This document shows positions 48,873 to 64,000 of a DNA stretch of 64,000 nt, one piece after another. Under the pieces are notes generated by a model, which was not told where the DNA came from, ran no database searches, and saw nothing but the letters and a program-made list of their open reading frames with translations. Source of the stretch: Streptomyces sp. JB150 (lineage in GTDB: Bacteria > Actinomycetota > Actinomycetes > Streptomycetales > Streptomycetaceae); assembly GCF_011193355.1 (NCBI RefSeq), contig NZ_CP049780.1:6361798-6425797 (forward strand), read 5' to 3'. The stretch's first letter is position 1; each line of letters opens with the position of its first letter. Position numbers and translations under genes: made by a program.

Positions 48873-49036
48873 AGCCCCGTCCTCTCCCCACCCCCGGACC
48901 GCTCCCCGCCCCGGGTCGTGCGTTCATCCTGGGCTGCGCGGTGCGGTCGCGCCAGAGTGGGGGAGGGCCGGGCTCTCCCGGCGCCGCTCCTTCGGTGGCC
49001 GTACCGAGCCCGTCCCCGCGCGGCTTTGTCCTGTGA

Positions 49037-49078
49037 GTGGAAAAAGTAGGGGCCAATTCCTGCGCGACTTCTTCCCAC
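49037..49078. promoter_or_regulatory. Dyad upstream of the ROK regulator, possible ROK operator
   Basis: Near-inverted arms GTGGAAAAAGT (49037-49047) and ACTTCTTCCCAC (49067-49078) are about 20 bases apart, in an A/T-rich island unusual for this DNA. TACGTT at about 49094 could be a -10. Autoregulation by the ROK protein is an inference. Confidence 0.45.
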
Positions 49079-49161
49079 CTCCGGCAGCCGCTGCTACGTT
49101 CCCCCTCGAAAGCCGGACGCACCGGTGACCGCGATGGCCGGACATGAGGCGGGAGGGGTAC

Positions 49162-50352
49162 GTGAGACGCATGACCGCGCGACCCGCGAACGCCCATCAG
49201 GCCAGACTGCTGAAGCTGTTGCGGGACGGCGGGCCCAACTCGCGGGCCCAGCTCGGCGACCAGGTCGATCTGTCGCGGTCCAAACTGGCCGTGGAGGTCG
49301 ACCGGCTGCTGGAGACGGGCCTGGTCGTGGCCGACGGACTCGCCGCCTCGCGCGGCGGCCGGCGCTCCCACAACATCCGGCTCGCCCCCGGCCTGCGTTT
49401 CCTCGGCGTCGACATCGGTGCCACCTCCATCGACGTCGCCGTCACCAACGCGGAGCTCGAGATCCTGGGCCACATCACCCAGCCCATGGAGGTCCGCGAG
49501 GGGCCCGTCGCGGTTTTCGAGCAAGTCCTCGCGATGGCGGGCAAGTTGAAGGCCTCGGGGCTCGCCGAGGGGTTCGACGGCGCCGGCATCGGCGTGCCCG
49601 GCCCGGTGCGCTTCCCCGAGGGCATCCCGGTCGCGCCCCCGATCATGCCCGGCTGGGACGGCTTCCCGGTCCGGGAGGCGCTCAGCCAGGAACTCGGCTG
49701 CCCCGTCATGGTCGACAACGACGTGAACCTGATGGCCATGGGGGAGCAGCACGCCGGCGTCGCCCGCTCCGTCGGCGACTTCCTCTGCGTCAAGATCGGC
49801 ACCGGCATCGGCTGCGGCATCGTCGCCGGCGGGACGGTCCACCGCGGTACGACGGGCAGCGCCGGCGACATCGGCCACATCCAGGCCGTACCCGACGGCC
49901 GCCCCTGCGCCTGCGGCAACCGGGGCTGCCTGGAGGCCCACTTCAGCGGCGCCGCCCTCGCCCGCGACGCCCTGGAGGCCGCCCAGCAGGGGCAGTCCGC
50001 CGAACTCGCCGCGCGCCTGGAGGTGAACGGCACCCTCACCGCCGCCGACGTCGCCGCCGCGGCCGCCGCGGGCGACGCCGTCTCGCTCGACCTGATCCGC
50101 GAGGGAGGCACCCGTACCGGCCAGGTCATCGCCGGCCTGGTCAGCTTCTTCAACCCCGGCCTGGTGGTGATCGGCGGCGGGGTGACCGGCCTCGGCCACA
50201 CCCTGCTCGCCGCGATCCGCACCCAGGTCTACCGCCAGTCGCTGCCGCTCGCGACCGGCAACCTGCCCATCGTGCTGGGGGAGTTGGGCCCCACCGCCGG
50301 TGTCATCGGCGCGGCCCGGCTCATCAGCGACCACCTGTTCTCACCCGCGTAG
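49162..50352 (+). CDS. ROK-family transcriptional regulator of the sugar cluster
   Basis: A 396-residue protein. Winged HTH at residues 8-60 (NAHQARLLKLLRDGGPNSRAQLGDQVDLSRSKLAVEVDRLL). Sugar-kinase-like ROK domain follows, with FLGVDIGATSIDVAV (phosphate loop), VMVDNDVNLMAMGE and the zinc site CACGNRGCLEA. Such proteins repress sugar operons and release DNA on binding a sugar. GTG 49162 lies 5 bases after GGAGG; ATG 49144 and 49171 are alternatives. It precedes the ABC importer genes by 184 bases and is probably their regulator. Confidence 0.9.
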   Translation: MRRMTARPANAHQARLLKLLRDGGPNSRAQLGDQVDLSRSKLAVEVDRLLETGLVVADGLAASRGGRRSHNIRLAPGLRFLGVDIGATSIDVAVTNAELEILGHITQPMEVREGPVAVFEQVLAMAGKLKASGLAEGFDGAGIGVPGPVRFPEGIPVAPPIMPGWDGFPVREALSQELGCPVMVDNDVNLMAMGEQHAGVARSVGDFLCVKIGTGIGCGIVAGGTVHRGTTGSAGDIGHIQAVPDGRPCACGNRGCLEAHFSGAALARDALEAAQQGQSAELAARLEVNGTLTAADVAAAAAAGDAVSLDLIREGGTRTGQVIAGLVSFFNPGLVVIGGGVTGLGHTLLAAIRTQVYRQSLPLATGNLPIVLGELGPTAGVIGAARLISDHLFSPA

Positions 50353-50536
50353 GCACAGCCCCGTACGACCGCACGACCGTACGACCCCGAGTTCGACCGC
50401 GTCAGTTCGGCACACATACCCGGCTCAGCGCTCCGCCCTGCCCTGCCCCGTTTCGCCCAGCCCTTCCTCCCCCCCGCCCCCCGCTCCACCCTCGCCCTGA
50501 ACCGGCCCGCACCCACGCCCGCCGAGGGGAACCCAC

Positions 50537-52060
50537 ATGGCACCAGAACCACCGCTGCTCAGCATGTCCGGCATCACCAAGTCGTTCCCCGGAGTCCGCG
50601 CCCTGGACGGTGTCGACCTCGACGTCCAGGCCGGTGAAGTGCACTGCCTGCTCGGCCAGAACGGGGCCGGCAAGTCCACCCTCATCAAGGTTCTCGCCGG
50701 CGCCCACCAGCCCGACGACGGCACCATCCGCTGGCGCGGCGAGCCGGTCACCCTGCGCTCCCCGGTCGCCGCCATGCGCCTCGGCATCGCCACCATCTAC
50801 CAGGAACTCGACCTGGTGGAACACCTGTCGGTGGCCGAGAACGTCCACCTCGGCCACGAACCCACGGCCGCCGGCTTCGTCGTACGGCGCGGAGCGGCCC
50901 GCGCCTCGACGGCCGCGCTGCTCAAGCGGCTCGGGCACCCCGAGATCGATCCGGCGCGCCTGGTGGGCGAGTTGTCGGCGGCGCAGCAGCAGATCGTCTC
51001 CATGGCGCGGGCGCTCTCCCACGACGTACGGCTGATCGTGATGGACGAGCCGTCCGCCGCGCTCGACCCGGACGAGGTCGACAACCTGTTCCGAATCGTC
51101 GGCGACCTCACCGCCGACGGCGTCGCGGTCGTCTACATCTCGCACCGGCTGGAGGAGATCCGCCGGATCGGCGACCGGGTCACCGTGCTGAAGGACGGGC
51201 GGGCGGTGGCCGGCGGGCTGCCCGCGCAGACGACACCGACGCGCGACGTCGTGGCCCTGATGACCGGCCGGAACGTGGAGTACGTCTTCCCCGAGCGGCC
51301 GGCCGCGCCGGCACCGGGGACGCGGCGCCCCGTGCTGGAGGTGCGGGGACTGGCGCGCACGGGCGAGTTCGCGCCGCTGGACCTCACGGTGCACGCGGGC
51401 GAGATCGTGGGGCTGGCCGGGCTGGTCGGGTCGGGACGGTCCGAGATTCTGGAGACGGTGTACGGCGCCCGTAAGCCGACGGCCGGTCAGGTCCTGGTCG
51501 AGGGACGGCCGTTGAAGACCGGCAGCGTACGGGCCGCCGTCCGCGCCGGCCTCGGCCTCGCCCCCGAGGAACGCAAGGCGCAGGCCCTGCTCATGCTGGA
51601 GTCCGTCACCCGCAACGTCTCCGTCTCCTCGCTGTCCCGCTTCTCCCGCGGCGGCTGGATCGACCGGGGTGCCGAACTCGGTGCCGCCCGGGCCGCCACC
51701 CACGAGCTGTCACTGCGGCCCGACAACCCCGCCGTCCCCGTGCGCACCCTCTCCGGCGGCAACCAGCAGAAGGCCGTCCTGGCGCGCTGGCTGCTGCGCG
51801 GCTGCAAGGTGCTGCTGCTCGACGAGCCCACCCGCGGTGTCGACGTCGGCGCCCGCGCCGAGCTGTACGCGGTCGTCCGCCGGCTGGCGGACGAAGGCCT
51901 CGCGGTGCTCCTCGTCTCCAGCGAGGTGCCCGAGGTGCTGGGCCTCGCCGACCGTGTGCTGGTGCTGCGCGAGGGCCGCGTCGTCCACACCGCGCCGGCC
52001 GGCGAACTCGACGAACACCGCGTACTCGACCTCGTGATGGAAGGAAGCCCGGCGTCATGA
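50537..52060 (+). CDS. Sugar ABC importer ATPase (RbsA/MglA type)
   Basis: A 507-residue protein with two ATPase cassettes. First: Walker A GQNGAGKST (40-48), Walker B LIVMDEPSAALD, with signature ELSAAQQQ (weak). Second: degenerate Walker A GLVGSGRSE, signature TLSGGNQQK, Walker B VLLLDEPTRGVD. Loss of the second Walker A lysine is normal in the CUT2 class. It powers uptake with the permease at 52057 and lipoprotein at 53094. ATG 50537 follows GAGGGGAA; the stop overlaps the permease start (ATGA). Confidence 0.94.
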   Translation: MAPEPPLLSMSGITKSFPGVRALDGVDLDVQAGEVHCLLGQNGAGKSTLIKVLAGAHQPDDGTIRWRGEPVTLRSPVAAMRLGIATIYQELDLVEHLSVAENVHLGHEPTAAGFVVRRGAARASTAALLKRLGHPEIDPARLVGELSAAQQQIVSMARALSHDVRLIVMDEPSAALDPDEVDNLFRIVGDLTADGVAVVYISHRLEEIRRIGDRVTVLKDGRAVAGGLPAQTTPTRDVVALMTGRNVEYVFPERPAAPAPGTRRPVLEVRGLARTGEFAPLDLTVHAGEIVGLAGLVGSGRSEILETVYGARKPTAGQVLVEGRPLKTGSVRAAVRAGLGLAPEERKAQALLMLESVTRNVSVSSLSRFSRGGWIDRGAELGAARAATHELSLRPDNPAVPVRTLSGGNQQKAVLARWLLRGCKVLLLDEPTRGVDVGARAELYAVVRRLADEGLAVLLVSSEVPEVLGLADRVLVLREGRVVHTAPAGELDEHRVLDLVMEGSPAS

Positions 52061-53076
52061 CGCAACCCGTCTCCCCGCCGCGGGGCGCCACCGACAAGGC
52101 GCCGCCGGCCGACCCCCGCCCCGCCTGGAGCACCCTGGTGTTCCGCGCCGACGTGCGCACCCTGTCCCTGCTGGGCGTGCTGGCCGCGCTCGTCGTCATC
52201 GGCGGCATCACCAAGCCCGACGAGTTCCTGGACACCCGCAACCTCCAGCTCGTCCTCACCCAGGCCTCGGTCATCGGTGTCGTCACCGTCGGCATGACCT
52301 TCGTGATCACCTCCGGCGGCATCGACCTGTCCGTCGGCGCGATCGTCGCCCTCGCCTCGGTGTGGGCGACCACGGTCGCCACCCAGGAGTACGGCTTCGC
52401 CGGCATCCTGTTCACCGCGGTTCTCGTCGGCGTCGGCTGCGGACTGGTCAACGGACTGCTGATCGCCTACGGCGGGATGGTCCCGTTCATCGCCACGCTC
52501 GCCATGCTGGCGTCCGCCCGCGGCCTGGCGCTCCAGATCACCGACGGCAAGACGCAGATCGTCACCGTCGACGGCATCCTCGACCTCGGCGAACGCGACG
52601 CGTACGTCCTCGGCGTCCCGCCGCTCGTCCTCGTCTTCGCCGCCGTCACGGTCATCGGATGGCTGGTGCTGAACCGCACCACCTTCGGCCGCCGCACGGT
52701 CGCCGTCGGCGGCAACGCGGAGGCCGCACGGCTCGCCGGCATCGACGTCCGCCGCCAGCGCCTCTACCTCTACCTGCTGTCCGGGCTGTGCTGCGGCATC
52801 GCCGCCTTCCTGCTGATCGTCCTGTCCGGCTCCGGCCAGAACACCAACGGCAACCTCTACGAACTCGACGCCATCGCCGCCGCGATCATCGGCGGCACCC
52901 TGCTCAGCGGCGGCCGCGGCACCATCACCGGCTCCGTGCTCGGCGTCCTGATCTTCACCACGATCACCAACATCTTCGCCCTGAACAACCTGCAGAGCGA
53001 CGTCCAGCAGATCGCCAAGGGCGCGATCATCGTCGCCGCCGTGCTGGTCCAGCGCCGTACCGCAAGCACGACCTGA
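52057..53076 (+). CDS. Sugar ABC importer permease (RbsC type)
   Basis: A 339-residue membrane protein with about nine or ten helices. CUT2 permease marks are VITSGGIDLSVGAIVALASVWA (the EAA-like coupling region is later), GGMVPFIATLAMLASARGLALQI and LYELDAIAAAIIGGTLLSGGRGT. It forms the channel for the RbsA-type ATPase and overlaps its gene by four bases. The N-terminal about 25 residues are Pro/Ala-rich. Confidence 0.93.
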   Translation: MTQPVSPPRGATDKAPPADPRPAWSTLVFRADVRTLSLLGVLAALVVIGGITKPDEFLDTRNLQLVLTQASVIGVVTVGMTFVITSGGIDLSVGAIVALASVWATTVATQEYGFAGILFTAVLVGVGCGLVNGLLIAYGGMVPFIATLAMLASARGLALQITDGKTQIVTVDGILDLGERDAYVLGVPPLVLVFAAVTVIGWLVLNRTTFGRRTVAVGGNAEAARLAGIDVRRQRLYLYLLSGLCCGIAAFLLIVLSGSGQNTNGNLYELDAIAAAIIGGTLLSGGRGTITGSVLGVLIFTTITNIFALNNLQSDVQQIAKGAIIVAAVLVQRRTASTT

Positions 53077-53093
53077 GGAAAGGGTTCACCACC

Positions 53094-54134
53094 ATGTCGC
53101 ACCTCCCCAGTCGCAGAGGACTGCTCTTCGGGACCGCCGCCGTCTCCGCCGGTGCCCTCCTCGCAGGTTGCACGAGTAACGAGAAGGACGACGACAAGCC
53201 CGCCGCGAACGACCAGCCGGCCGCCGACGACAAGCCGGGCAAGCAGGTCACCATCGGCTTCGCCGGACCGCAGGCCGACCACGGCTGGCTCAACGCGATC
53301 AACGAGAACGCCAAGAGCCGCGCCGAGAAGTACCAGGACGTCACGCTGGAGATCACCGAGGGCTCCAACGACACCGCCCAGCAGATCGGGCAGATCGAGA
53401 CCCTGATCAACAAGAAGGTCGACGTCCTGGTCGTCCTGCCCGCCGACGGCAAGGCCCTCACCCAGGTCGGCCTGAAGGCGATGCGCGCCGGCATCCCCGT
53501 CGTCAACCTCGACCGCATCTTCAACACCCCGCAGGCCTACCGCTGCTGGATCGGCGGCGACAACTACGGCATGGGCCTGAACGCCGGCCACTACATCGGC
53601 GAGAAGCTCAAGGACAAGCCGGACGCCCGCGTCATCGAACTCGCCGGACTGGACAACCTGGAGCTGACCAAGCAGCGCACCCAGGGCTTCGACGACGCCC
53701 TCAAGAACTACCCGAACATCAAGAAGGTCGCCCGCCAGGCCGCCGAGTTCACCGTCGAGTCCGGGCAGGCCAAGATGGCGCAACTGCTCCAGGCCCAGTC
53801 CCGGTTCGACGCCCTGTGGAACCACGACGACGACCAGGGCGTGGGCGCGCTGCGCGCCATCGAACAGGCCGGACGCGACGACTTCCTGATGGTCGGCGGA
53901 GCCGGTGCGCTCTCCGCCTTCCAGGCCATCAAGCAGGACGACGGCGTCCTCAAGGCGACCGTCCTCTACCCGCCCACCATGGCCGCGTCCGCGATCGACC
54001 TCGCCCGCGCCCTCGGCCAGGGCAAGGGCGTCGGCGGTCTCGCCGAGTTCGAGATCCCGGCGTCCCTCACCCTCTACTCGGCCGTGGTCGACAAGACCAA
54101 CGTCGACCAGTACATGCCCACCGGCTTCGAGTGA
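53094..54134 (+). CDS. Sugar ABC importer substrate-binding lipoprotein
   Basis: A 346-residue lipoprotein. The start has a twin-arginine-like SRRGLLFG and a lipobox LLAGC (Cys26), so it is likely Tat-exported and lipid-anchored. A charged disordered stretch (EKDDDKPAANDQPAADDKPGKQ) links it to a periplasmic-binding-protein type I fold (VTIGFAGPQADHGWLNAINENAKSRAEKYQDVTLEI..). The binding cleft has DVLVVLPADGKALTQ and WNHDDDQGVGALRA. It delivers the sugar to the permease; the sugar is unknown. Start ATG 53094 follows GGAAAGGG. Confidence 0.93.
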   Translation: MSHLPSRRGLLFGTAAVSAGALLAGCTSNEKDDDKPAANDQPAADDKPGKQVTIGFAGPQADHGWLNAINENAKSRAEKYQDVTLEITEGSNDTAQQIGQIETLINKKVDVLVVLPADGKALTQVGLKAMRAGIPVVNLDRIFNTPQAYRCWIGGDNYGMGLNAGHYIGEKLKDKPDARVIELAGLDNLELTKQRTQGFDDALKNYPNIKKVARQAAEFTVESGQAKMAQLLQAQSRFDALWNHDDDQGVGALRAIEQAGRDDFLMVGGAGALSAFQAIKQDDGVLKATVLYPPTMAASAIDLARALGQGKGVGGLAEFEIPASLTLYSAVVDKTNVDQYMPTGFE

Positions 54135-54207
54135 GGCGTCCTGCCGCACCCCCCACCGCGCACGGCCCGGGCCGCCCCGGCGGCCCACTGACGAGGAGGA
54201 CATCTGC

Positions 54208-55797
54208 ATGGAAGAGCCGGAGCAGTCCGCGGCACCGGAGCGTTCCGTGACGCCGGATCGGTCCGCGGTACCGGACCGGCCCGCGGACCCGGAGCGGTCG
54301 GTGACACCGGAGCAGTCCGCGGCATCCGAGCGGCCCGCGACGGCGGAGCCGTCCGTGGCGGCCGGGCAGACCGTGGTGGCCGGGCCGTCCGCGGCGGTAC
54401 CGGGGCAGTCCGCGGTGGCCCCCGTGGCACCGGGGCAGTCCCTGACGTCGGAGCAGCCCATCGCACCGGAGGAGCCCAGCGCACCGGAGCAGCCCAGCGC
54501 ACCGGGGCAGGCCGCGGCACCGCTGCCGACCGCGGTGGCGGAACTGTCCGTAACAGCAGAGCGACCCGTCGCGGCGAAGTCACCCGTCACGGCGGAGCGG
54601 CCCGCCGCACCGCCGCCGGGAACGGGCAAGCCCCCGCTGCGGATCGGCATGGTCGGCTATGCCTTCATGGGCGCCGCCCACTCGCAGGGCTGGCGCACCG
54701 CGGGCCGTGTCTTCGACCTGCCCCGGCGCCCGGTGCTGGCCGCGATCTGCGGCCGGGACGCGGACGCCGTGCGCGCGGCGGCCGACCGGCACGGCTGGGC
54801 CGCCGCCGAGACCGACTGGCGGGCGCTGATCGCCCGCGACGACGTCGACCTCGTCGACATCTGCACCCCCGGCGACAGCCACGCCGAGATCGCGCTCGCC
54901 GCCCTCGCCGCCGGCAAGCACGTCCTGTGCGAGAAGCCCCTCGCGAACACCGTCGAGGAGGCCGAGGCGATGACCGAGGCCGCCGAAACCGCGTACCGCA
55001 ACGGCCAGTTGGCGATGGTCGGGTTCAACTACCGCCGCGTCCCCGCCACCGCGCTCGCCCGCCGGATGGTCGCCGAAGGCCGCCTCGGCACCCTGCGGCA
55101 CGTACGGGTGGCGTACCTCCAGGACTGGCTGGTCGACCCCGAGTTCCCGCTCACCTGGCGGCTGCGCAAGGAACAGGCCGGCTCCGGCTCGCTCGGCGAC
55201 CTCGGCGCGCACATCGTCGACCTCGCCCAGTACCTGGCGGGGGAGCCGCTGGCGGGGGTGTCCGCCCTGACCGAGACCTTCGTACGGCAGCGGCCGCTGC
55301 CCGGCGGGCCGACGAGCGGTCTCGCCGCGGTCTCCGCGAACGGCACCGGGACCGTCACCGTCGACGACGCCGCCCTGTTCACCGGCCGCTTCGCGTCCGG
55401 CGCCCTCGCCTCCTTCGAGGCCACCCGCTACGCCACCGGCCGCAAGAACGCCCTGCGCATCGAACTCAACGGCGAACGCGGCTCGCTCGCCTTCGACCTG
55501 GAGCGGCTGAACGAGCTGTGGTACCACGACGCCACCGAGCCCGGCACGCACGCGGGCTTCCGCCGCATCCTCGTCACCGAGCCCGAGCACCCCTACCTGG
55601 ACGCCTGGTGGCCGCCCGGCCACGGTCTCGGCTACGAGCACACCTTCGTCCACCAGGCCCGCGACCTGGTGCACGCCGTCGCCGAGGGCCGCCGCCCCGA
55701 ACCCTCCTTCGCCGACGGGCTCCAGGTGCAGCGCGTCCTCGCCGCGGTGGAGGAGAGCGCCGGGAAGAACTCCGTCTACACGCCGATCGCCGCCTGA
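54208..55797 (+). CDS. Gfo/Idh/MocA dehydrogenase with hexapeptide-repeat N-terminal extension
   Basis: A 529-residue protein. Residues 4-134 are about twenty degenerate six-residue repeats of the form P/A-E-R/Q-S/P-V/A-T/A ([30 protein letters not shown]). The usual enzyme starts only at residue 141 ([12 protein letters not shown]). NAD motif GMVGYAFMG is at 147-155, EKP at 242-244, and the substrate motif [18 protein letters not shown] near residue 330. The catalytic part is normal length, so the tail is an addition. ATG 54208 follows GAGGAGGA. The enzyme probably oxidises a sugar hydroxyl (for example C3). It is in one transcript with the ABC genes. Confidence 0.88.
54217..54609 (+). repeat. 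18-bp degenerate coding repeat (hexapeptides) in the Gfo/Idh gene
   Basis: About twenty 18-base units, each encoding one hexapeptide, with one 33-base irregular unit ([11 protein letters not shown]). Codon choice is similar among units, which points to expansion by slippage followed by drift. Confidence 0.85.
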
Positions 55798-55810
55798 GGG
55801 GACACGCCGT

Positions 55811-56809
<999 letters not shown>

Positions 56810-56945
56810 ACCGCCCCGGTGCCGGCCGGCGGCCCCACCGCCGGCCCGCACCGGACCAGCACCGCAACGGCACGACTCTCCGGGATGACGGCGCATCCCG
56901 GCGCAGGCACCCGCCCGTACAACCCGCCCCTTTCTGGAGGCATTC

Positions 56946-59477
56946 GTGCACGGGAACGACCGGAACCACCCCACGACCGGCACCGGAAGAACCGACACCC
57001 CCGGACGACCGCGCCAGACCCTGCGCAGAACCGTCGCCCTGCTCGGCGGGGCGCTGTTGGCCGGCGCCTCTCTCACCTTCGTGGCGCCCCAGGCCGGCGC
57101 GGCCGTGCCCGGCCGGGACGCCGCCGACGGCCGGAGCGCCGTGGCCGCCGAGGACTTCCAGCAGGTCACCCTCGCGAAGGGCGAGGCGGAGGTGGGCGAG
57201 CCCATGTCGCTCGCCGTCCTCCCGGACCGCTCCGTCCTGCACACCTCGCGCGACGGCGAACTGCGCCTGACGGACGCCGCGGGCAACACCAGGCTCGCCG
57301 GGAAGATCGACGTCTACAGCCACGACGAGGAGGGCCTCCAGGGCGTCGGCGTCGACCCCGGCTTCGCGGAGAACCGTTTCATCTACCTCTACTACGCGCC
57401 CCCGCTGAACACCCCCGCGGGCGACGCGCCCGAGACCGGCACCGCCGCCGACTTCGCCCCCTTCGACGGCGTCAACCGCCTCTCCCGTTTCGTGCTGCGG
57501 ACGGACGGCACCCTCGACACCGCCAGCGAGAAGAAGATCCTCGACGTCCCCGCCAGCCGCGGCATCTGCTGCCACGTCGGCGGCGACATCGACTTCGACG
57601 CCGCCGGCAACCTGTACCTGTCGACGGGCGACGACTCCAACCCGTTCCAGTCGGACGGCTTCACCCCGATCGACGAGCGCGCGAACCGCAACCCCGCCTT
57701 CGACGCCCAGCGCACCTCCGGCAACACCAACGACCTGCGCGGCAAGATCCTGCGGATCAAGGTGAACGCCGACGGCTCCTACTCCGTCCCCGACGGCAAC
57801 CTCTTCCCGCCCGGTACCGACAAGACGCGGCCCGAGATCTACGCGATGGGCTTCCGCAACCCGTTCCGCTTCAGCGTCGACAAGGAGACCGGCATCCTCT
57901 ACGTCGGCGACTACGGCCCCGACGCCGGTGCCGCCGACCCGGCCCGCGGTCCGGCCGGCCAGGTCGAGTTCGCCCGCGTCACCGGCCCCGGCAACTTCGG
58001 CTGGCCGTACTGCACCGGCGACAACGACGCCTACGTCGACTACGACTTCGCGACGAAGACGTCCGGCGCGCCCTTCGACTGCGCCGCCCCGAGGAACACC
58101 TCGCCGAACAACACCGGCCTGACCGAGCTGCCCCCGGCCCAGCCCGCCTGGATCCCGTACGACGGCGGCTCGCTGCCCGAGTTCGGCAGCGGCTCCGAGT
58201 CCCCGATGGGCGGGCCGGTCTACCGCTACGACCCGGCCCTCGACTCGCCGGTGAAGTTCCCCGAGGCGTACGACGGCGACTTCTTCGCCGGGGAGTTCGG
58301 GCGGCGCTGGATCAAGCGGATCGAGCACGGCGGCGACGGCACGGTGCAGGCGATCTCCGACATCCCGTGGACCGGCACCCAGGTCATGGACATGGCCTTC
58401 GGCCCGGACGGCGCGCTGTACGTCCTCGACTACGGCACCGCCTGGTTCGGCGGCGACGAGCACTCGGCCCTGTACCGCATCGAGAACGCCACCGACGGCC
58501 ACTCCCCGGTCGCCCAGGCGAGCGCGAGCCGCACGTCCGGCAAGGCCCCGCTGTGGGTCCGCTTCTCCTCCGAGGGCTCCACCGACCAGGACGGCGACGC
58601 CCTGACCTACCGCTGGGACTTCGGCGACGGCACCAGCTCCACCCAGCCCGACCCCGCCCACCGCTACCGCAAGAACGGCACCTACACGGCGACCGTGACC
58701 GCCAAGGACCCCTCGGGCCGCACCGGCAGCGCCAGTGTGCGGATCGTCGTCGGCAACACCGCGCCCACCGTGGTGCTGGAGACACCGCGCGACGGACAGC
58801 TGTTCAGCTTCGGTGACGCCATCCCGTTCAAGGTGCGCGTCACCGACCCCGAGGACGGCACCGCGATCGACTGCGCCAAGGTCAAGGTCACCTTCATCCT
58901 CGGCCACGACTCCCACGGCCACCCGCTCACCTCGGCCAACGGCTGCACCGGCACCCTGCAGACCAGCGCCGACGGCGGCCACGACGAGGACGCCAACATC
59001 TTCGGCGTGATCGACGCCGAGTACACCGACGGCGGAGGCGGCGGCCAGGCCCCGCTCACCACCCACGACCAGAACGTCGCCCAGCCCAAGCACCGCCAGG
59101 CCGAGCACTTCGGCAACGGCTCCGGCGTCTCGGTCATCACCAAGGACACCGCGCACGGCGGCCGCACCGTCGGCAACGTCCACAACGGCGACTGGATCTC
59201 CTTCACGCCGTACCTCCTGACCAACGCCGAGAGCGTCACCGCGCGCGTCTCCTCCGGCGGTGCGGGCGGCACCCTGGAGATCCGCGCGGGCTCCTCCACC
59301 GGCACCCTCCTCGGCAAGGCCACCGTCCCGGTGACCGGCGGCTGGGACGTCTTCCAGGACGTCAGCGCCGACCTCTCCCGCGCCCCGCGCGGCACCACCA
59401 CCCTGTACCTGGTCTTCAAGGGCAGCGGCACCGGCGCGCTGTTCGACGTCGACGACTTCACCTTCACCACCGGCTGA
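56946..59477 (+). CDS. Secreted PQQ-type sugar dehydrogenase with PKD and CBM6 modules
   Basis: An 843-residue protein. A signal peptide is at about 22-53 (TVALLGGALLAGASLTFVAPQAGAA). A soluble glucose/sorbosone dehydrogenase-like beta-propeller spans about 70-520 (LQGVGVDPGFAENRFIYLYY, CCHVGGDIDFDAAGNLYLSTGDD, PEIYAMGFRNPFRFSVD). A PKD module follows (LTYRWDFGDGTSSTQPD, about 545-600), then an inserted beta domain with CAKVKV and NGCTG. The C-terminus is CBM6-like (EHFGNGSGVSVITKDTAHGGRTVGNVHNGDW). It may oxidise sugars in polysaccharides outside the cell. Start GTG 56946 follows GGAGG. It lies 136 bases after the isomerase gene. Confidence 0.9.
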   Translation: MHGNDRNHPTTGTGRTDTPGRPRQTLRRTVALLGGALLAGASLTFVAPQAGAAVPGRDAADGRSAVAAEDFQQVTLAKGEAEVGEPMSLAVLPDRSVLHTSRDGELRLTDAAGNTRLAGKIDVYSHDEEGLQGVGVDPGFAENRFIYLYYAPPLNTPAGDAPETGTAADFAPFDGVNRLSRFVLRTDGTLDTASEKKILDVPASRGICCHVGGDIDFDAAGNLYLSTGDDSNPFQSDGFTPIDERANRNPAFDAQRTSGNTNDLRGKILRIKVNADGSYSVPDGNLFPPGTDKTRPEIYAMGFRNPFRFSVDKETGILYVGDYGPDAGAADPARGPAGQVEFARVTGPGNFGWPYCTGDNDAYVDYDFATKTSGAPFDCAAPRNTSPNNTGLTELPPAQPAWIPYDGGSLPEFGSGSESPMGGPVYRYDPALDSPVKFPEAYDGDFFAGEFGRRWIKRIEHGGDGTVQAISDIPWTGTQVMDMAFGPDGALYVLDYGTAWFGGDEHSALYRIENATDGHSPVAQASASRTSGKAPLWVRFSSEGSTDQDGDALTYRWDFGDGTSSTQPDPAHRYRKNGTYTATVTAKDPSGRTGSASVRIVVGNTAPTVVLETPRDGQLFSFGDAIPFKVRVTDPEDGTAIDCAKVKVTFILGHDSHGHPLTSANGCTGTLQTSADGGHDEDANIFGVIDAEYTDGGGGGQAPLTTHDQNVAQPKHRQAEHFGNGSGVSVITKDTAHGGRTVGNVHNGDWISFTPYLLTNAESVTARVSSGGAGGTLEIRAGSSTGTLLGKATVPVTGGWDVFQDVSADLSRAPRGTTTLYLVFKGSGTGALFDVDDFTFTTG

Positions 59478-59489
59478 GAGGAGGCCGCG

Positions 59490-60917
59490 ATGCGATCCAC
59501 CGCACGACTGACCACCGCGGTCACCGCTACGGCGCTGCTGCTCGGCGGCCTCGCCGCGCAGCCGGCGCTCTCGGCCGCGGAGGGCGCGCACGACGGCAAG
59601 CGCGTACTGGTCTTCTCCAAGACGGCCGGCTTCCGCCACGACTCCATCCCCGAGGGCGTCGCCACCGTGCGCGCGCTCGGCGAGCGGGGCGGCTTCACGG
59701 TCGACGCCACCGAGGACGCGGCCGCGTTCACCCCGGCCACCCTGCGCCGCTACGACGCGGTCGTCTTCCTCTCCACGACCGGCGACGTCCTGAACGCCAC
59801 CCAGCAGTCCGCCTTCGAGGGCTACATCCGCCGCGGCGGCGGCTACGTCGGCATCCACGCGGCCGCCGACACCGAGTACGACTGGGCGTTCTACGGCGGC
59901 CTCGCCGGCGCCTACTTCCGGTCGCACCCGGCGATCCAGCCGGCCGACGTCCACGTCGAGGACCGCGCCCACCCGGCCACCTCCGGGCTGGCCCGCACCT
60001 GGCACCGCACCGACGAGTGGTACGACTACCGCTCCAACCCGCGCGAGCGCGCCCATGTCCTCGCCTCGCTCGACGAGTCCTCGTACACCGGCGGCACCAT
60101 GCACGGCGACCACCCGATCGCCTGGTGCCAGACCTACCAGGGCGGCCGCGCCTTCTACACCGGCGGCGGCCACACCAAGGAGTCCTTCGCCGAACCCGCC
60201 TTCCGCGAGCACCTGCTCGGCGGAATCCGGTACGCCATCGGCGCCGCCCAGGCCGACTGCCGCCCGGAGAACGGCTACCGTCCGCTCTTCGACGGCACCC
60301 GGGCCTCGCTGGACGGCTGGCGCCAGGCCGGCCCCGGCTCCTTCACCCTCTCCGACGACGGCACGCTCACCTCGTCCGGCGGCATGGGGATGCTCTGGTA
60401 CGCCGCGTCCGGCTTCTCCTCCTACTCGCTGAAGCTGGACTGGCGCACGGCCGGCGACGACAACTCCGGGGTGTTCGTCGGCTTCCCGCCGTCGGACGAC
60501 CCCTGGTCGGCGGTGAACCAGGGCTACGAGATCCAGATCGACGCCACCGACGTACCGGAGAAGACCACCGGTTCCGTCTACGGCTTCCGCTCCGCCGACC
60601 TGAAGAAGCGCGACCGGGCGCTCAACCCGCCGGGGGAGTGGAACACGTACGAGATCCGCGTGGAGGGCGAACGCCTCCGCGTCTGGCTCAACGGCGTGAA
60701 GATCAACGATTTCACCAGCACGGACCCGGCGCGGAGCCTTCGGGACGGACACATCGGCATCCAGAACCACGGAGCCGAGGACCAGGTGTCCTTCCGCGAC
60801 ATCCGGATCAAGGAACTGCCCGCGACCGCCTCCCGGGACCCGCAGGGTTCCCACGGCGCCCAAGGAAGCCAGGGCTCTCAGGGCTCTCAGGGCTCCCAGG
60901 GCTCGCAGGGCGACTGA
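59490..60917 (+). CDS. Secreted ThuA plus DUF1080 (3-keto-glycoside hydrolase-like) protein
   Basis: A 475-residue protein. Signal peptide 1-29. ThuA domain at about 38-255 (VLVFSKTAGFRHDSIPEGVATVRALGE, VGIHAAADTEYDW, MHGDHPIAWCQ). DUF1080/LamG-like domain at about 265-445 (YRPLFDGTRASLDGWRQAGPGSF, YEIQIDATDVPEKTTGSVYG, WNTYEIRVEGERLRVWLNG). A low-complexity tail ends the protein (five GSQ). DUF1080 proteins include 3-keto-disaccharide hydrolases; ThuA occurs in trehalose utilisation. It starts 12 bases after the dehydrogenase stop. Together they suggest extracellular oxidation and cleavage of a glycoside. Confidence 0.88.
   Translation: MRSTARLTTAVTATALLLGGLAAQPALSAAEGAHDGKRVLVFSKTAGFRHDSIPEGVATVRALGERGGFTVDATEDAAAFTPATLRRYDAVVFLSTTGDVLNATQQSAFEGYIRRGGGYVGIHAAADTEYDWAFYGGLAGAYFRSHPAIQPADVHVEDRAHPATSGLARTWHRTDEWYDYRSNPRERAHVLASLDESSYTGGTMHGDHPIAWCQTYQGGRAFYTGGGHTKESFAEPAFREHLLGGIRYAIGAAQADCRPENGYRPLFDGTRASLDGWRQAGPGSFTLSDDGTLTSSGGMGMLWYAASGFSSYSLKLDWRTAGDDNSGVFVGFPPSDDPWSAVNQGYEIQIDATDVPEKTTGSVYGFRSADLKKRDRALNPPGEWNTYEIRVEGERLRVWLNGVKINDFTSTDPARSLRDGHIGIQNHGAEDQVSFRDIRIKELPATASRDPQGSHGAQGSQGSQGSQGSQGSQGD
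60864..60908 (+). repeat. 9-bp coding tandem repeat (GSQ/GSx tail)
   Basis: Five units (ggaagccag, ggctctcag, ggctctcag, ggctcccag, ggctcgcag) encode a Gly-Ser-Gln tail just before the stop codon of the ThuA-DUF1080 gene. The change in serine codons shows partial decay. Confidence 0.9.
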
Positions 60918-61015: not shown

Positions 61016-62335
61016 ATGTCCGCGTCCGTTTCCCGGCCACGCGTCGGCGTCTGGCTGATCGGGGCCCGCGGGTCCGTCGCCACCACCGTCGTCGCCGGCT
61101 GCGCCGCCGTCACGGCGGGACTGCACCCACCCACCGGCATGGTCACCGAGACCCCGCCCTTCGCGGACTGCGGGCTGCCGCCCCTGTCCTCCCTCGTCTT
61201 CGGCGGCCACGACGTCGTCGACTGCCCCCTGCCCAAACGCGCCGAGGCGCTCGCCGCGGGCGGCGTCCTGCCGCCCGGCCTGCCGGCCGCCGTCGCCGCC
61301 GAACTCGCCGCCGCCGACCGGGAGATCCGGCCCGGCGGTCCGGTCCCGGGCGGCGCCGCCGCCGGGGACACCCGTGACGCGGAGGACCTCATCACCGTCT
61401 TCACCTCCGACATACGGGACTTCGTACGGCGGCACGGGCTGCAGCGGGCCGTCGTGGTGAACGTGGCCTCGACGGAACCCGCGCCGGCCGGCGAGGAGCT
61501 GCCCGCCAGCTCCCTGTACGCGGCGGCGGCCCTGCGCGCCGGCTGCCCCTACGCCAACTTCACCCCCTCCACAGGCCTGCACCACCCGGCGCTCGCCGCG
61601 GCGACGGCCGCCTCCGGACTGCCGTACGCGGGCCGCGACGGCAAGACCGGGCAGACGCTGCTGCGCTCCGTGCTGGGGCCGATGTTCGCCCAGCGGGCGC
61701 TCACCGTACGCGCCTGGTCCGGCACCAACCTGCTGGGCGGCGGGGACGGCGCCGCCCTCGCCGACCCGGCCGCCGCCGCGGCGAAGAACGCCGGCAAGGA
61801 ACGCGTCCTCGCCGACACCCTCGGCACCGTCCCCGAGGGCGAGGTCCACATCGACGACGTGCCCGCCCTCGGCGACTGGAAGACCGCCTGGGACCACATC
61901 GCCTTCGACGGCTTCCTCGGCACCCGCATGATCCTCCAGACCATCTGGCAGGGCTGCGACTCCGCCCTCGCCGCGCCCCTCGTCCTCGACCTGGCCCGCC
62001 TCCTCGCCCGCGCCCACGAGCAGGGCCTCGCCGGCCCCCTCGCCGAACTGGCCTTCTACTTCAAGGACCCGGTGGGCACCGCCCCGTCGTCCCTCGGCGA
62101 GCAGTACACGGCCCTGCTGGACCTCGCGGAACGGCTACGGGGCGAGGGGCGGCCGCAGCCGCCCGGGACGGAGCCGTTCGGAGCCTCGGGGGCGGAGGCC
62201 GCCGGGGCGACGGAGGAGCGTTCCGGGGGCGCCGGGGCGGGGCGCCGTCACGCAGCGACGGCGGAGCGTCCCGGGGCCGCCGGGGCGCAGACGCCCCGTG
62301 CCGCCCGCGCCGAGTCGTCCGGGGAGCGCCGATGA
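61016..62335 (+). CDS. Inositol-3-phosphate synthase-like enzyme (ebo-type cluster)
   Basis: A 439-residue protein. NAD motif VWLIGARGSVATTVVAGCA (residues 12-30). Further marks are DLITVFTSDIRDFVRRHG, GRDGKTGQTLLRSVLGPMF, KNAGKERVLADTLG and YFKDPVGTAPSSLGEQY, which are catalytic-domain signatures of myo-inositol-phosphate synthases. The last about 55 residues (GASGAEAAGATEERSGG..) are low complexity. Its position next to a UbiA-type prenyltransferase and an EboE-like isomerase marks the ebo-like group rather than primary inositol synthesis. ATG 61016 follows AAGGAGG; the stop overlaps the next start (ATGA). Confidence 0.88.
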   Translation: MSASVSRPRVGVWLIGARGSVATTVVAGCAAVTAGLHPPTGMVTETPPFADCGLPPLSSLVFGGHDVVDCPLPKRAEALAAGGVLPPGLPAAVAAELAAADREIRPGGPVPGGAAAGDTRDAEDLITVFTSDIRDFVRRHGLQRAVVVNVASTEPAPAGEELPASSLYAAAALRAGCPYANFTPSTGLHHPALAAATAASGLPYAGRDGKTGQTLLRSVLGPMFAQRALTVRAWSGTNLLGGGDGAALADPAAAAAKNAGKERVLADTLGTVPEGEVHIDDVPALGDWKTAWDHIAFDGFLGTRMILQTIWQGCDSALAAPLVLDLARLLARAHEQGLAGPLAELAFYFKDPVGTAPSSLGEQYTALLDLAERLRGEGRPQPPGTEPFGASGAEAAGATEERSGGAGAGRRHAATAERPGAAGAQTPRAARAESSGERR

Positions 62336-63501
62336 GTGAGCGACACGTCGACGGGCAGGGACCGTCGGGCGAGAGAGGCGGCGGGGCGCTGCGCGACGGG
62401 ACCGGCCGCCGCACAGGCAGGCTCGCGCACCCCGTGTCCGGCGACGCCGGCCGCACCAGCGCCCCGCTCGCCACCGGCACAGGCGGTGCCCCGGAGGCCT
62501 CCGACGGCCCCGACGCCCCCGACGTCTCCGACACGGGGACCGCGCGGGCCGCGCGGGCCGCGCGGCGCGGCGGCCGGGGCCGGGCCCGCGCCTGGGCGGA
62601 ACTGCTGCGTGTGCCCGCCCTGTTCACCGTCCCCGGCGACGCCCTCGCGGGCACCGCGGCGACGGGGACGCGCCCCGGCACCCGCACGCTGCTCGCCATC
62701 GGTTCCTCCCTGTGCCTGTACGAGGCCGGCATGGCCCTCAACGACTGGGCGGACCGGGCGGAGGACGCCCGGGACCGCCCGCACCGGCCGCTGCCCTCCG
62801 GCCGGGTCCGCCCGGCGGCGGCCCTGACCGCGGCCTGTGCGCTGACCGGCGCGGGGCTCGCCCTCGCCGCCCGCGCCGGGCGCCCCGCGCTGGCCGTCGC
62901 CGCTCCCCTCGCGGCCACGGTCTGGTCGTACGACCTCGGCCTGAAGCACACCCCGGCCGGGCCGGCCGCCATGGCCGCCGCCCGCGGCCTCGACCTGCTC
63001 CTGGGTGCCGCGGCCGGCGGCGGCCGCACCCGCGCGGCCCTCCCGTCCGCGGCGCTGCTGGCCGGCCACACTCTCGCGGTGACGACGGTGTCCCGCCGGG
63101 AGGCGCAGGGCGGCTCGTCCGCCGGCCCGCTCGCCGCGCTCGCCGCCTCCGCCCTGCTGACCGCCCTGCTGACCCGCCGGCCCGCCCCGCCACTGTCCCG
63201 GCAGGCCGCCGAGTCGTGGCAGACCGCCGCACCCCGGCAGGCTGCCGAGTCCCGGCAGACCGCCGCCCTGCGGACCGCCCTCGGCGCCGCGTACGCCGCG
63301 ACGGTCGCCCGCCCCTACCTGCACGCCGCCCTCAATCCCTCACCCCCGCTCACCCAGCGGGCCGTCGGCGGCGGCATCCGCGCCACCATCCCGCTGCAGG
63401 CCGCGCTCTGCGCCCGCGCCGGAGCCCGCGTCACCGCCCTGGCCGTCGCCGCCCTCGCCCCCGTCGGCCGGGCCTGCGCGAGGAAGGTGAGCATCACATG
63501 A
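62332..63501 (+). CDS. UbiA-type prenyltransferase (SCO3242/EboC-like)
   Basis: A 389-residue protein with a disordered 85-residue N-terminus (repeats of ARAARAARR) followed by about eight or nine membrane helices. Prenyl-diphosphate motif NDWADRAEDARDRPHRPLPSGR, with N137, D138, D141 and D145, is intact. The second Asp-rich motif is less clear (SYDLGLKHTPAGP region). Loop 63199-63270 holds a near-repeat (RQAAESWQTAAP / RQAAESRQTAAL). It probably attaches a prenyl chain to a sugar or aromatic head. ATG overlaps the upstream stop and its own stop overlaps the next start (ATGA). Confidence 0.9.
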   Translation: MSERHVDGQGPSGERGGGALRDGTGRRTGRLAHPVSGDAGRTSAPLATGTGGAPEASDGPDAPDVSDTGTARAARAARRGGRGRARAWAELLRVPALFTVPGDALAGTAATGTRPGTRTLLAIGSSLCLYEAGMALNDWADRAEDARDRPHRPLPSGRVRPAAALTAACALTGAGLALAARAGRPALAVAAPLAATVWSYDLGLKHTPAGPAAMAAARGLDLLLGAAAGGGRTRAALPSAALLAGHTLAVTTVSRREAQGGSSAGPLAALAASALLTALLTRRPAPPLSRQAAESWQTAAPRQAAESRQTAALRTALGAAYAATVARPYLHAALNPSPPLTQRAVGGGIRATIPLQAALCARAGARVTALAVAALAPVGRACARKVSIT

Positions 63502-64000
63502 CCACCCGCCCCGCGACCGCCGGCACCCGCTCCTGCCTCCGCTTCGGCTACGGCACCAACGGCCTCGCCGACCTGCGCCTCGACGACGCCCTCGCCCTGC
63601 TCGCCGACCTCGGCTACGACGGCGTCGGACTGACCCTCGACCACATGCACCTCGACCCGTACGCACCCCTCCTCTCCGCCCGCACCCGCCGCGTCGCCCG
63701 CCGCCTGCACGCGCTCGGCCTGTCCGTCACCGTGGAGACCGGCGCCCGCTACGTCCTCGACCCGCGCCGCAAGCACGGCCCCTCCCTGCTGGACCCGGAC
63801 CCGCGGGACCGGGCCCGCCGCACCGACCTGCTGCTGCGCGCCGTGCGGATCGCCGCCGACCTCGGCGCCCACGCCGTGCACTGCTTCAGCGGCATCACCC
63901 CCGCCGGGACGGACCCGGACACGGCGTGGAAACGCCTCGCCGACAGCCTCGCCCCCGTCCTGGACGCCGCCGCCACCGCCGGCGTCCCCCTCGCCGTCGA
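63498..64000 (+). CDS. EboE-like sugar phosphate isomerase/epimerase (cut by window edge)
   Basis: The first 167 residues of a TIM-barrel xylose-isomerase-like protein. Start ATG 63498 overlaps the prenyltransferase stop (ATGA). Visible marks are CLRFGYGTNGLADLRLDDALALL (barrel entry), YDGVGLTLDHMHLDPYAPLL, VTVETGARYVLDPRRKHGPSLL and GAHAVHCFSGITPAG. The pattern fits EboE-type members, which sit with inositol synthase and UbiA genes in ebo clusters. The metal-site C-terminal half is outside the window. Confidence 0.85.
   Translation, partial: MTTRPATAGTRSCLRFGYGTNGLADLRLDDALALLADLGYDGVGLTLDHMHLDPYAPLLSARTRRVARRLHALGLSVTVETGARYVLDPRRKHGPSLLDPDPRDRARRTDLLLRAVRIAADLGAHAVHCFSGITPAGTDPDTAWKRLADSLAPVLDAAATAGVPLAV

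Follow-up and report, generated by a model that had tools for sequence, protein, structure and literature searches.

A route of glycoside breakdown that proceeds by C3 oxidation, elimination, hydration, and reduction has been described in bacteria (PMC7676230; PMC10628242). The Lgd pathway of Bacillus smithii comprises four enzymes (lgdA, B1, B2, and C), a LacI regulator, and two permeases (PMC7676230), and the O-glycoside eliminase operon of Agrobacterium contains two oxidoreductases and two isomerase-like enzymes (PMC10628242). In the lactose route of Caulobacter, an exported DUF1080 protein stands beside a system that oxidizes sugars at position 3 outside the cytoplasm (PMC9007349). Here, we analyzed a stretch of 64,000 nucleotides of Streptomyces sp. 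JB150 (hereafter the window), which covers 6.36–6.43 Mb of the 7.32-Mb genome and whose close relatives are from Streptomyces. It holds a unit of eight genes for a ROK regulator, a sugar importer, two putative cytoplasmic enzymes, and two secreted proteins. With a probability of roughly 0.55, we propose that this unit forms the core of a regulon by which glycosides are degraded oxidatively (3-keto type), with the work divided between the two sides of the membrane. A keto-glycoside pathway had already been suggested from the letters alone (hereafter the sequence-only reading), and it appears to be the best reading in view of the relatives of three of the enzymes and of a palindrome that ties the secreted and cytoplasmic halves together.

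Gene Content of the Unit

The eight coding sequences lie at 49144–60917, all on the + strand, and three of them account for the importer. The genes and the control elements before them are as follows:

49024–49046, + strand: operator-like palindrome CTTTGTCCTGTGAGTGGAAAAAG (48.9 bits with a position weight matrix, PWM)
49095–49100, + strand: probable -10 hexamer TACGTT, 71 bases from the palindrome start
49144–50352, + strand: ROK-family regulator, 402 amino acids (PF00480, 196.6 bits; cut-off 22.9)
50537–52060, + strand: CUT2 sugar ABC transporter ATPase with two ABC_tran stretches (AraG/XylG-like, under the equivalog cut-offs)
52057–53076, + strand: CUT2 permease (BPD_transp_2, 125.9 bits), overlapping the ATPase frame by 4 bases
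53094–54134, + strand: sugar-binding protein (Peripla_BP_4, 163.3 bits)
54208–55797, + strand: Gfo/Idh oxidoreductase (Gfo) of a levoglucosan-dehydrogenase-like subfamily, with a long N-terminal extension (4h3v, 560.6 bits; 6a3f, 317.8 bits; NF052479, 364.8 bits)
55811–56809, + strand: AP_endonuc_2 TIM barrel, 2-hydroxy-3-keto-glucal-hydratase-like (HYD; 2zds, 737.8 bits; 8ro4, 132.3 bits)
56946–59477, + strand: secreted protein with GSDH beta-propeller, PKD, and CBM6 (Pfam)
59490–60917, + strand: secreted ThuA-DUF1080 protein (3keto-disac_hyd, the 3-keto-disaccharide hydrolase family; PF06439, 154.2 bits; gathering score 26.8)

All eight products score above their Pfam cut-offs, which bears out the same-direction gene list of the sequence-only reading. 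A double ABC ATPase, a BPD_transp_2 permease, and a Peripla_BP_4 binding protein together make up a CUT2 importer. The NagC/Mlc models align to ROK from residue 21–22, with scores under their cut-offs. Leaders were read by eye: the binding protein has a twin-arginine-like stretch and a lipobox-like LAGC, and the N-termini of the GSDH and ThuA-DUF1080 proteins are hydrophobic.

For Gfo, HYD, and DUF1080, the closest relatives of named activity are keto-sugar enzymes. In the case of Gfo, this relative is levoglucosan dehydrogenase. HYD aligns over residues 17–311, that is, most of the barrel, with 8ro4, its single relative of named activity at E below 1e-5, which was deposited as a 2-hydroxy-3-keto-glucal hydratase; EvHP, DPSHF, and EWE-type stretches are matched and may hold a metal. 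With such a relative, the "isomerase/epimerase" is better called hydratase-like. No eliminase-named chain of the Agrobacterium operon was found among the 13 structure matches of HYD. Structures of 3-keto-glycoside eliminases/hydratases (8rr2, 9fbe, 8v31, and 8tda) are among those that match the DUF1080 model.

The N-terminal extension of Gfo (about 135 residues, 54208–54630) is of low complexity and repeat-like, with a good ribosome-binding site before the start; in Gfo relatives the extensions are shorter and variable. The ThuA-DUF1080 protein ends in a GSQGSQ-type repeat.

A Palindrome Shared by Distant Loci

The palindrome upstream of ROK, CTTTGTCC-N7-GGAnAAAG, was traced from words that the gaps preceding ROK share with those preceding GSDH. 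A site of at least 12 bits stands upstream of ROK in 60/60 regions, 53 of which formed the training set of the PWM. The same PWM, trained before ROK, detected a site in 36 of 51 HYD–GSDH gaps, whereas 100 column-shuffled PWMs detected none. Over 1.54 Mb, both strands counted, there were 129 hits of at least 12 bits: 76 before ROK, 51 between HYD and the next GSDH (a long span in loci L053, L056, and L064; in L064 the site is found after HYD, followed by an inositol-phosphate-synthase-like gene, InoS, with no GSDH there), and two elsewhere (L071 and L079), which precede PA14-DUF7133-RicinB genes.

When the whole JB150 genome (7.3 Mb) was searched with at most one mismatch, the palindrome appeared at three places: before ROK and at two loci which are the only other JB150 clusters holding GSDH, ThuA, and DUF1080:

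6.555 Mb (L096): palindrome flanked by the genes for a SLAC-like two-domain laccase and for ThuA-GSDH, the latter followed by a cupredoxin-DUF1080 gene
155 kb (L095): palindrome before a GSDH-PKD-CBM6-RicinB gene, then a ThuA-DUF1080-RicinB gene

The system extends past the window, as laccase and cupredoxin-DUF1080 genes elsewhere carry the same palindrome. A fourth place in JB150, with two mismatches (4.86 Mb, L102), shows no comparable frame by eye.

Among 61 Streptomyces genomes, a site with at most one mismatch occurs in 43/43 ROK-positive genomes versus 1/18 ROK-negative ones (thresholds of E 1e-120 for ROK and 1e-200 for ThuA-GSDH were our choice). The reversed-pattern control gave three matches in JB150 at two mismatches and 11 in the same 61 genomes. 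We classified 102 distinct sites among the matches listed for these genomes and examined 40 site regions. Among these listed matches, 38 sites precede ROK, 21 lie about 7–8 kb downstream of the ROK start (the HYD–GSDH gap), 28 stand before ThuA-GSDH/laccase, and 15 are others, comprising 10 before GSDH, two at the 5' end of PA14-DUF7133 genes (L167 and L171; L171 also has DUF1080, and its site is just inside the longest frame), and three unexplained. Altogether, 99 of the 102 listed sites can be assigned to ROK, to the upstream side of secreted propeller genes, or to the interval that separates the small laccase from ThuA-GSDH. Given that the palindrome occurs together with ROK across the 61 genomes, ROK probably binds it.

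At one of the unexplained places (L160:3384), a nitrite/sulphite reductase frame bears a perfect operator-type palindrome at its 5' end. Between HYD and GSDH of the window there is a perfect 8-base inverted repeat, CCGGGATG-N6-CATCCCGG (56880–56901); a word related to it is present in 22 of 51 HYD–GSDH gaps.

The Small Laccase Locus

The laccase of L096 contains multicopper oxidase domains and is SLAC-like, with 636.4 bits to 3cg8, which we take to be SLAC of Streptomyces coelicolor. The cupredoxin domain before DUF1080 was identified by eye from its copper-site motif; judging from gene numbering, SCO6710 is probably the cupredoxin-DUF1080 gene beside SLAC (SCO6712). The gene order laccase, site, ThuA-GSDH, cupredoxin, DUF1080 was found in 27/27 laccase-type regions examined. 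ThuA-GSDH of the laccase locus is present in 36 of the 43 ROK-positive genomes and in no ROK-negative one (Fisher 3.7e-10, ignoring relatedness).

In Amycolatopsis coloradensis (L092), a single run contains ThuA-GSDH-PKD-CBM6, HYD (overlapping by 4 bases), a TIM barrel whose leader is of the export type, a two-domain laccase (52% identity with the L096 laccase), and ThuA-GSDH-PKD-DUF1080, as well as another protein whose N-terminus is signal-like. This gene run supports a joint function independently of the palindrome.

Promoter Geometry and the Role of ROK

A TAnnnT word begins at an offset of 70 or 71 bases, counted from the start of the palindrome, in 60/60 ROK promoters, 38/38 site-bearing HYD–GSDH gaps, 26/27 ThuA-GSDH promoters, and 10/10 other GSDH promoters. 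In total, 134 of 135 ROK or GSDH promoters, whose sequences are related and not independent, have a -10-like hexamer at this distance. In the laccase direction, TAnnnT is found at 37 in 26/27. If these hexamers are -10 elements, the center of the palindrome would be near -71, the usual place of an activator, and toward the laccase the palindrome would overlap the -35 region. The ROK domain of the regulator is clear (196.6 bits), but its designation as a repressor is doubtful because in four promoter classes the palindrome precedes the probable start by about 71 bases; activation appears more likely. The presumed ortholog of the window ROK is SCO6566. SCO6566 has been named just as a conserved ROK protein (PMC4856308). 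CysR, a ROK-type regulator of Corynebacterium, has been described as dual.

Conservation of the Neighborhood

The sequence-only reading had proposed a search for conserved synteny. We collected 80 loci with the closest HYD relatives; going by list position, 65 of them (L015–L079) were taken to be of the Streptomyces type. One of these is titled Kitasatospora and one Actinobacteria bacterium. ROK, ATPase, permease, binding protein, and Gfo are present in 59/59 Streptomyces-type loci with 8 kb to the left. GSDH and ThuA are both present in 40 of the 51 loci with 9 kb to the right, and ThuA alone in three.

Beyond Streptomyces, 57 HYD matches were obtained from other genera of the class, and 55 regions were used (G204 and G145, at contig ends, were left out; 6/55 are under 15 kb), together with 40 control regions drawn from those same genomes having room on the contig. 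The neighborhood is retained here too: in HYD regions versus controls (55 vs. 40), Gfo of at least 50% identity was found in 28 versus 0, the CUT2 permease in 21 versus 0, the binding protein in 21 versus 0, ROK in 27 versus 4, DUF1080 in 12 versus 0, and InoS and a UbiA-family gene each in 17 versus 0. A loose search for the ATPase was uninformative (21/55 vs. 17/40); at 50% identity it gave 16 versus 0. The synteny check of the sequence-only reading, which a lack of conserved neighborhood would have contradicted, came out in its favor.

The Secreted GSDH Protein

The GSDH propeller has the fold of soluble pyrroloquinoline quinone (PQQ) sugar dehydrogenases, and 30/30 members of its family retain the His and Arg-Asn of the active site (columns of the canonical paralogue L005). 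We take these residues to be H144 and R228-N229 in the numbering of the soluble glucose dehydrogenase, sGDH, where R406/R408 would be the PQQ-holding arginines of the GRxR motif. By eye, GTQVMD stands at this site before GPDGALYVLD, so that the two PQQ arginines look replaced. Automatic alignments are unstable here and do not confirm the replacement: the GRLR of L005 is placed elsewhere, Arg occupies the first place in 21/30, and hhalign ends before it. The propeller also contains an invariant Cys-Cys-His (alignment positions 138–140); to our knowledge, a Cys pair beside the active-site His is unusual in this fold.

No match to pqqC, and none to pqqE above its cut-off, was found in the JB150 genome. 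In 12 of the 61 Streptomyces genomes pqqC is above the cut-off, and in four (G006, G030, G032, and G040) it shares a contig with a palindrome site about 11–43 kb away. Uptake of PQQ by the cell would be possible. The "PQQ-type" label stands as far as the fold and three active-site residues are concerned, but the genome lacks pqqC, so that PQQ is a putative cofactor.

Neighboring Genes

An ebo-like cluster (InoS-like, UbiA, TIM barrels, and TatD; 61016–64000 and L174) is located downstream of the unit and is a regular neighbor of the system. Its first genes in the window are:

61016–62335, + strand: inositol-phosphate-synthase-like gene (InoS), first of the ebo-like cluster (PF07994/PF01658)
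62332–63501, + strand: UbiA-family gene, EboC-like (PF01040)

InoS is kept in 44 of 51 Streptomyces-type loci. In a cyanobacterium, ebo genes have been implicated in metabolite export (PMC6282210). Beyond its ebo-like genes, JB150 encodes a TIM-barrel protein whose leader is twin-arginine-like (L174:8389–9438), and a leader-bearing TIM barrel of the same type is found directly 3' of HYD in L092 (11016–11891) and L180 (10550–11509). This protein could be an extracellular eliminase or hydratase.

A Proposed Route and Its Alternatives

In the proposed system, secreted GSDH propellers with binding modules would oxidize the sugar ring outside the cell, and the keto-glycoside so formed would be split, through elimination or hydrolysis, by secreted ThuA-DUF1080 proteins. 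The CUT2 importer would carry in a keto-monosaccharide or glucal, in agreement with the monosaccharide-sized cargo that suits such importers. Inside, HYD may hydrate the imported product and Gfo, presumably acting as a reductase, may convert it to a plain sugar. ROK probably binds the palindrome and, by its position, probably activates. One Gfo and one hydratase-like barrel would provide the last two steps only, so that oxidation and cleavage fit GSDH and ThuA-DUF1080. ThuA is also part of keto-sugar metabolism in rhizobia. The cupredoxin-DUF1080 protein and the small laccase, with the same palindrome at the other locus, probably accept electrons (or oxidize freed phenols). It is possible, but quite tentative, that SLAC is the terminal oxidase of a chain from GSDH propeller to cupredoxin-DUF1080, laccase, and O2, coactivated with the import and salvage operon by one ROK.

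Several observations weigh against the proposed system. The HYD–GSDH gap of JB150 itself lacks the palindrome (best PWM score -31.8 bits), as do those of 12 other loci whose GSDH is at least 88.5% identical to that of the window, and the gaps of L038 and L078 reach just 10.0 and 9.5 bits; the secreted pair behind a gap without palindrome would need read-through, in the window past the inverted repeat. Neither secreted gene is found in 7/51 Streptomyces-type loci, and L064 has a distant GSDH alone. The core is also present without secreted genes in other genera, where the enrichment of GSDH (8/55 vs. 1/40, P = 0.07) and ThuA (6/55 vs. 1/40, P = 0.23) is not significant by Fisher values that ignore relatedness, and laccase is found in none of the 55 HYD regions. 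With the levoglucosan dehydrogenase model NF052479, Gfo is well under the curated cut-off of 650. Finally, in a genome without pqqC the PQQ cofactor, and even the dehydrogenase function, of GSDH can only be called putative.

The occurrence of the core without its secreted partners would also agree with a pathway in which all keto-glycoside chemistry takes place inside the cell: the importer would take up a small glycoside or anhydrosugar, Gfo would oxidize C3 in the manner of levoglucosan dehydrogenase, HYD (perhaps bifunctional) would eliminate and hydrate, Gfo or another enzyme would reduce, and the secreted proteins would just free the substrate. NF052479 is the best NCBIfam match of Gfo, though under the cut-off, and LgdB2 of Bacillus smithii has been suggested to both eliminate and hydrate (PMC7676230). 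We nevertheless regard this as doubtful, given that the operon has one oxidoreductase and one isomerase-like enzyme against two each in the Bacillus and Agrobacterium clusters and that the palindrome links the secreted enzymes to the core. It is less probable still that the secreted arm is an oxidative arsenal against biomass and phenols, with GSDH electrons going to lytic polysaccharide monooxygenases (LPMO) or quinones, laccase acting on phenolic aglycones, DUF1080/ThuA serving in binding or hydrolysis, and the importer taking up freed sugar. CBM6 and RicinB modules are present, SLAC oxidizes flavonoid aglycones (PMC3918160), and one DUF1080 protein has been reported as an endo-xanthanase/lichenase (PMC9007349); on the other hand, the HYD-like and Gfo genes of the core operon suit keto-sugar products, and keto-glycoside eliminase/hydratase structures match the DUF1080 model.

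Gfo/Idh, an IolE-like TIM barrel, and a CUT2 importer might also suggest an inositol-type catabolism, and the neighboring gene is inositol-phosphate-synthase-like. The matches to IolE (37.1 bits) and IolG (112.8 bits) are weak, far under the cut-offs of 290 and 355, and the glucal-hydratase and levoglucosan-dehydrogenase relatives score above them, which makes this explanation very improbable. That the genes are neighbors merely through a conserved chromosome region, with no joint function, we hold to be nearly negligible: InoS, beyond the unit, is retained as often as the secreted genes in Streptomyces-type loci, but the enrichment in other genera over controls and the recurrence of the palindrome at unlinked loci argue against it.

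If SLAC is indeed the terminal oxidase of such a chain, this would be an oxygen-driven, non-hydrolytic breakdown of glycosides outside a Gram-positive cell, and SLAC would gain a physiological role. One conserved site with fixed promoter spacing joins SLAC, putative secreted sugar dehydrogenases, DUF1080 enzymes, and a salvage operon. For the much-used SLAC, the literature examined states no natural role, and deletion of a single regulator could test one. The system would point to an extracellular form of the recently recognized non-hydrolytic glycoside pathway in soil bacteria.

Comparison with Known Systems

The window unit resembles the Lgd pathway of Bacillus smithii in that a regulator and a sugar ABC importer accompany Gfo/Idh and sugar-isomerase-like enzymes in both, whereas the available part of the Lgd account names no secreted GSDH, ThuA-DUF1080, or laccase (PMC7676230). 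A likeness to AtOGE/AtHYD of Agrobacterium lies in the relationship of the window TIM barrel to 8ro4; the paired oxidoreductases and isomerase-like enzymes of Lgd/OGE-type clusters are reduced here to one each. As in the Caulobacter lactose route, DUF1080 is exported, but the oxidant there is the membrane-bound LacABC (PMC9007349), whereas in Streptomyces it would be the GSDH propellers, with DUF1080 fused to ThuA or placed after a cupredoxin. The parts of the S. coelicolor SLAC literature considered describe no sugar role (PMC3918160), whereas the laccase of L096 sits with the putative keto-glycoside regulon. RokB, CsnR, and Rok7B7 of Streptomyces belong likewise to the ROK family, and the CsnR site quoted differs from the window palindrome (PMC4856308). 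The joining of these genes with a PQQ-type enzyme in a single unit had been considered not to be a standard pathway; since oxidation, elimination, hydration, and reduction already form a known route in other bacteria (PMC7676230; PMC10628242), the present system would be a variant of it.

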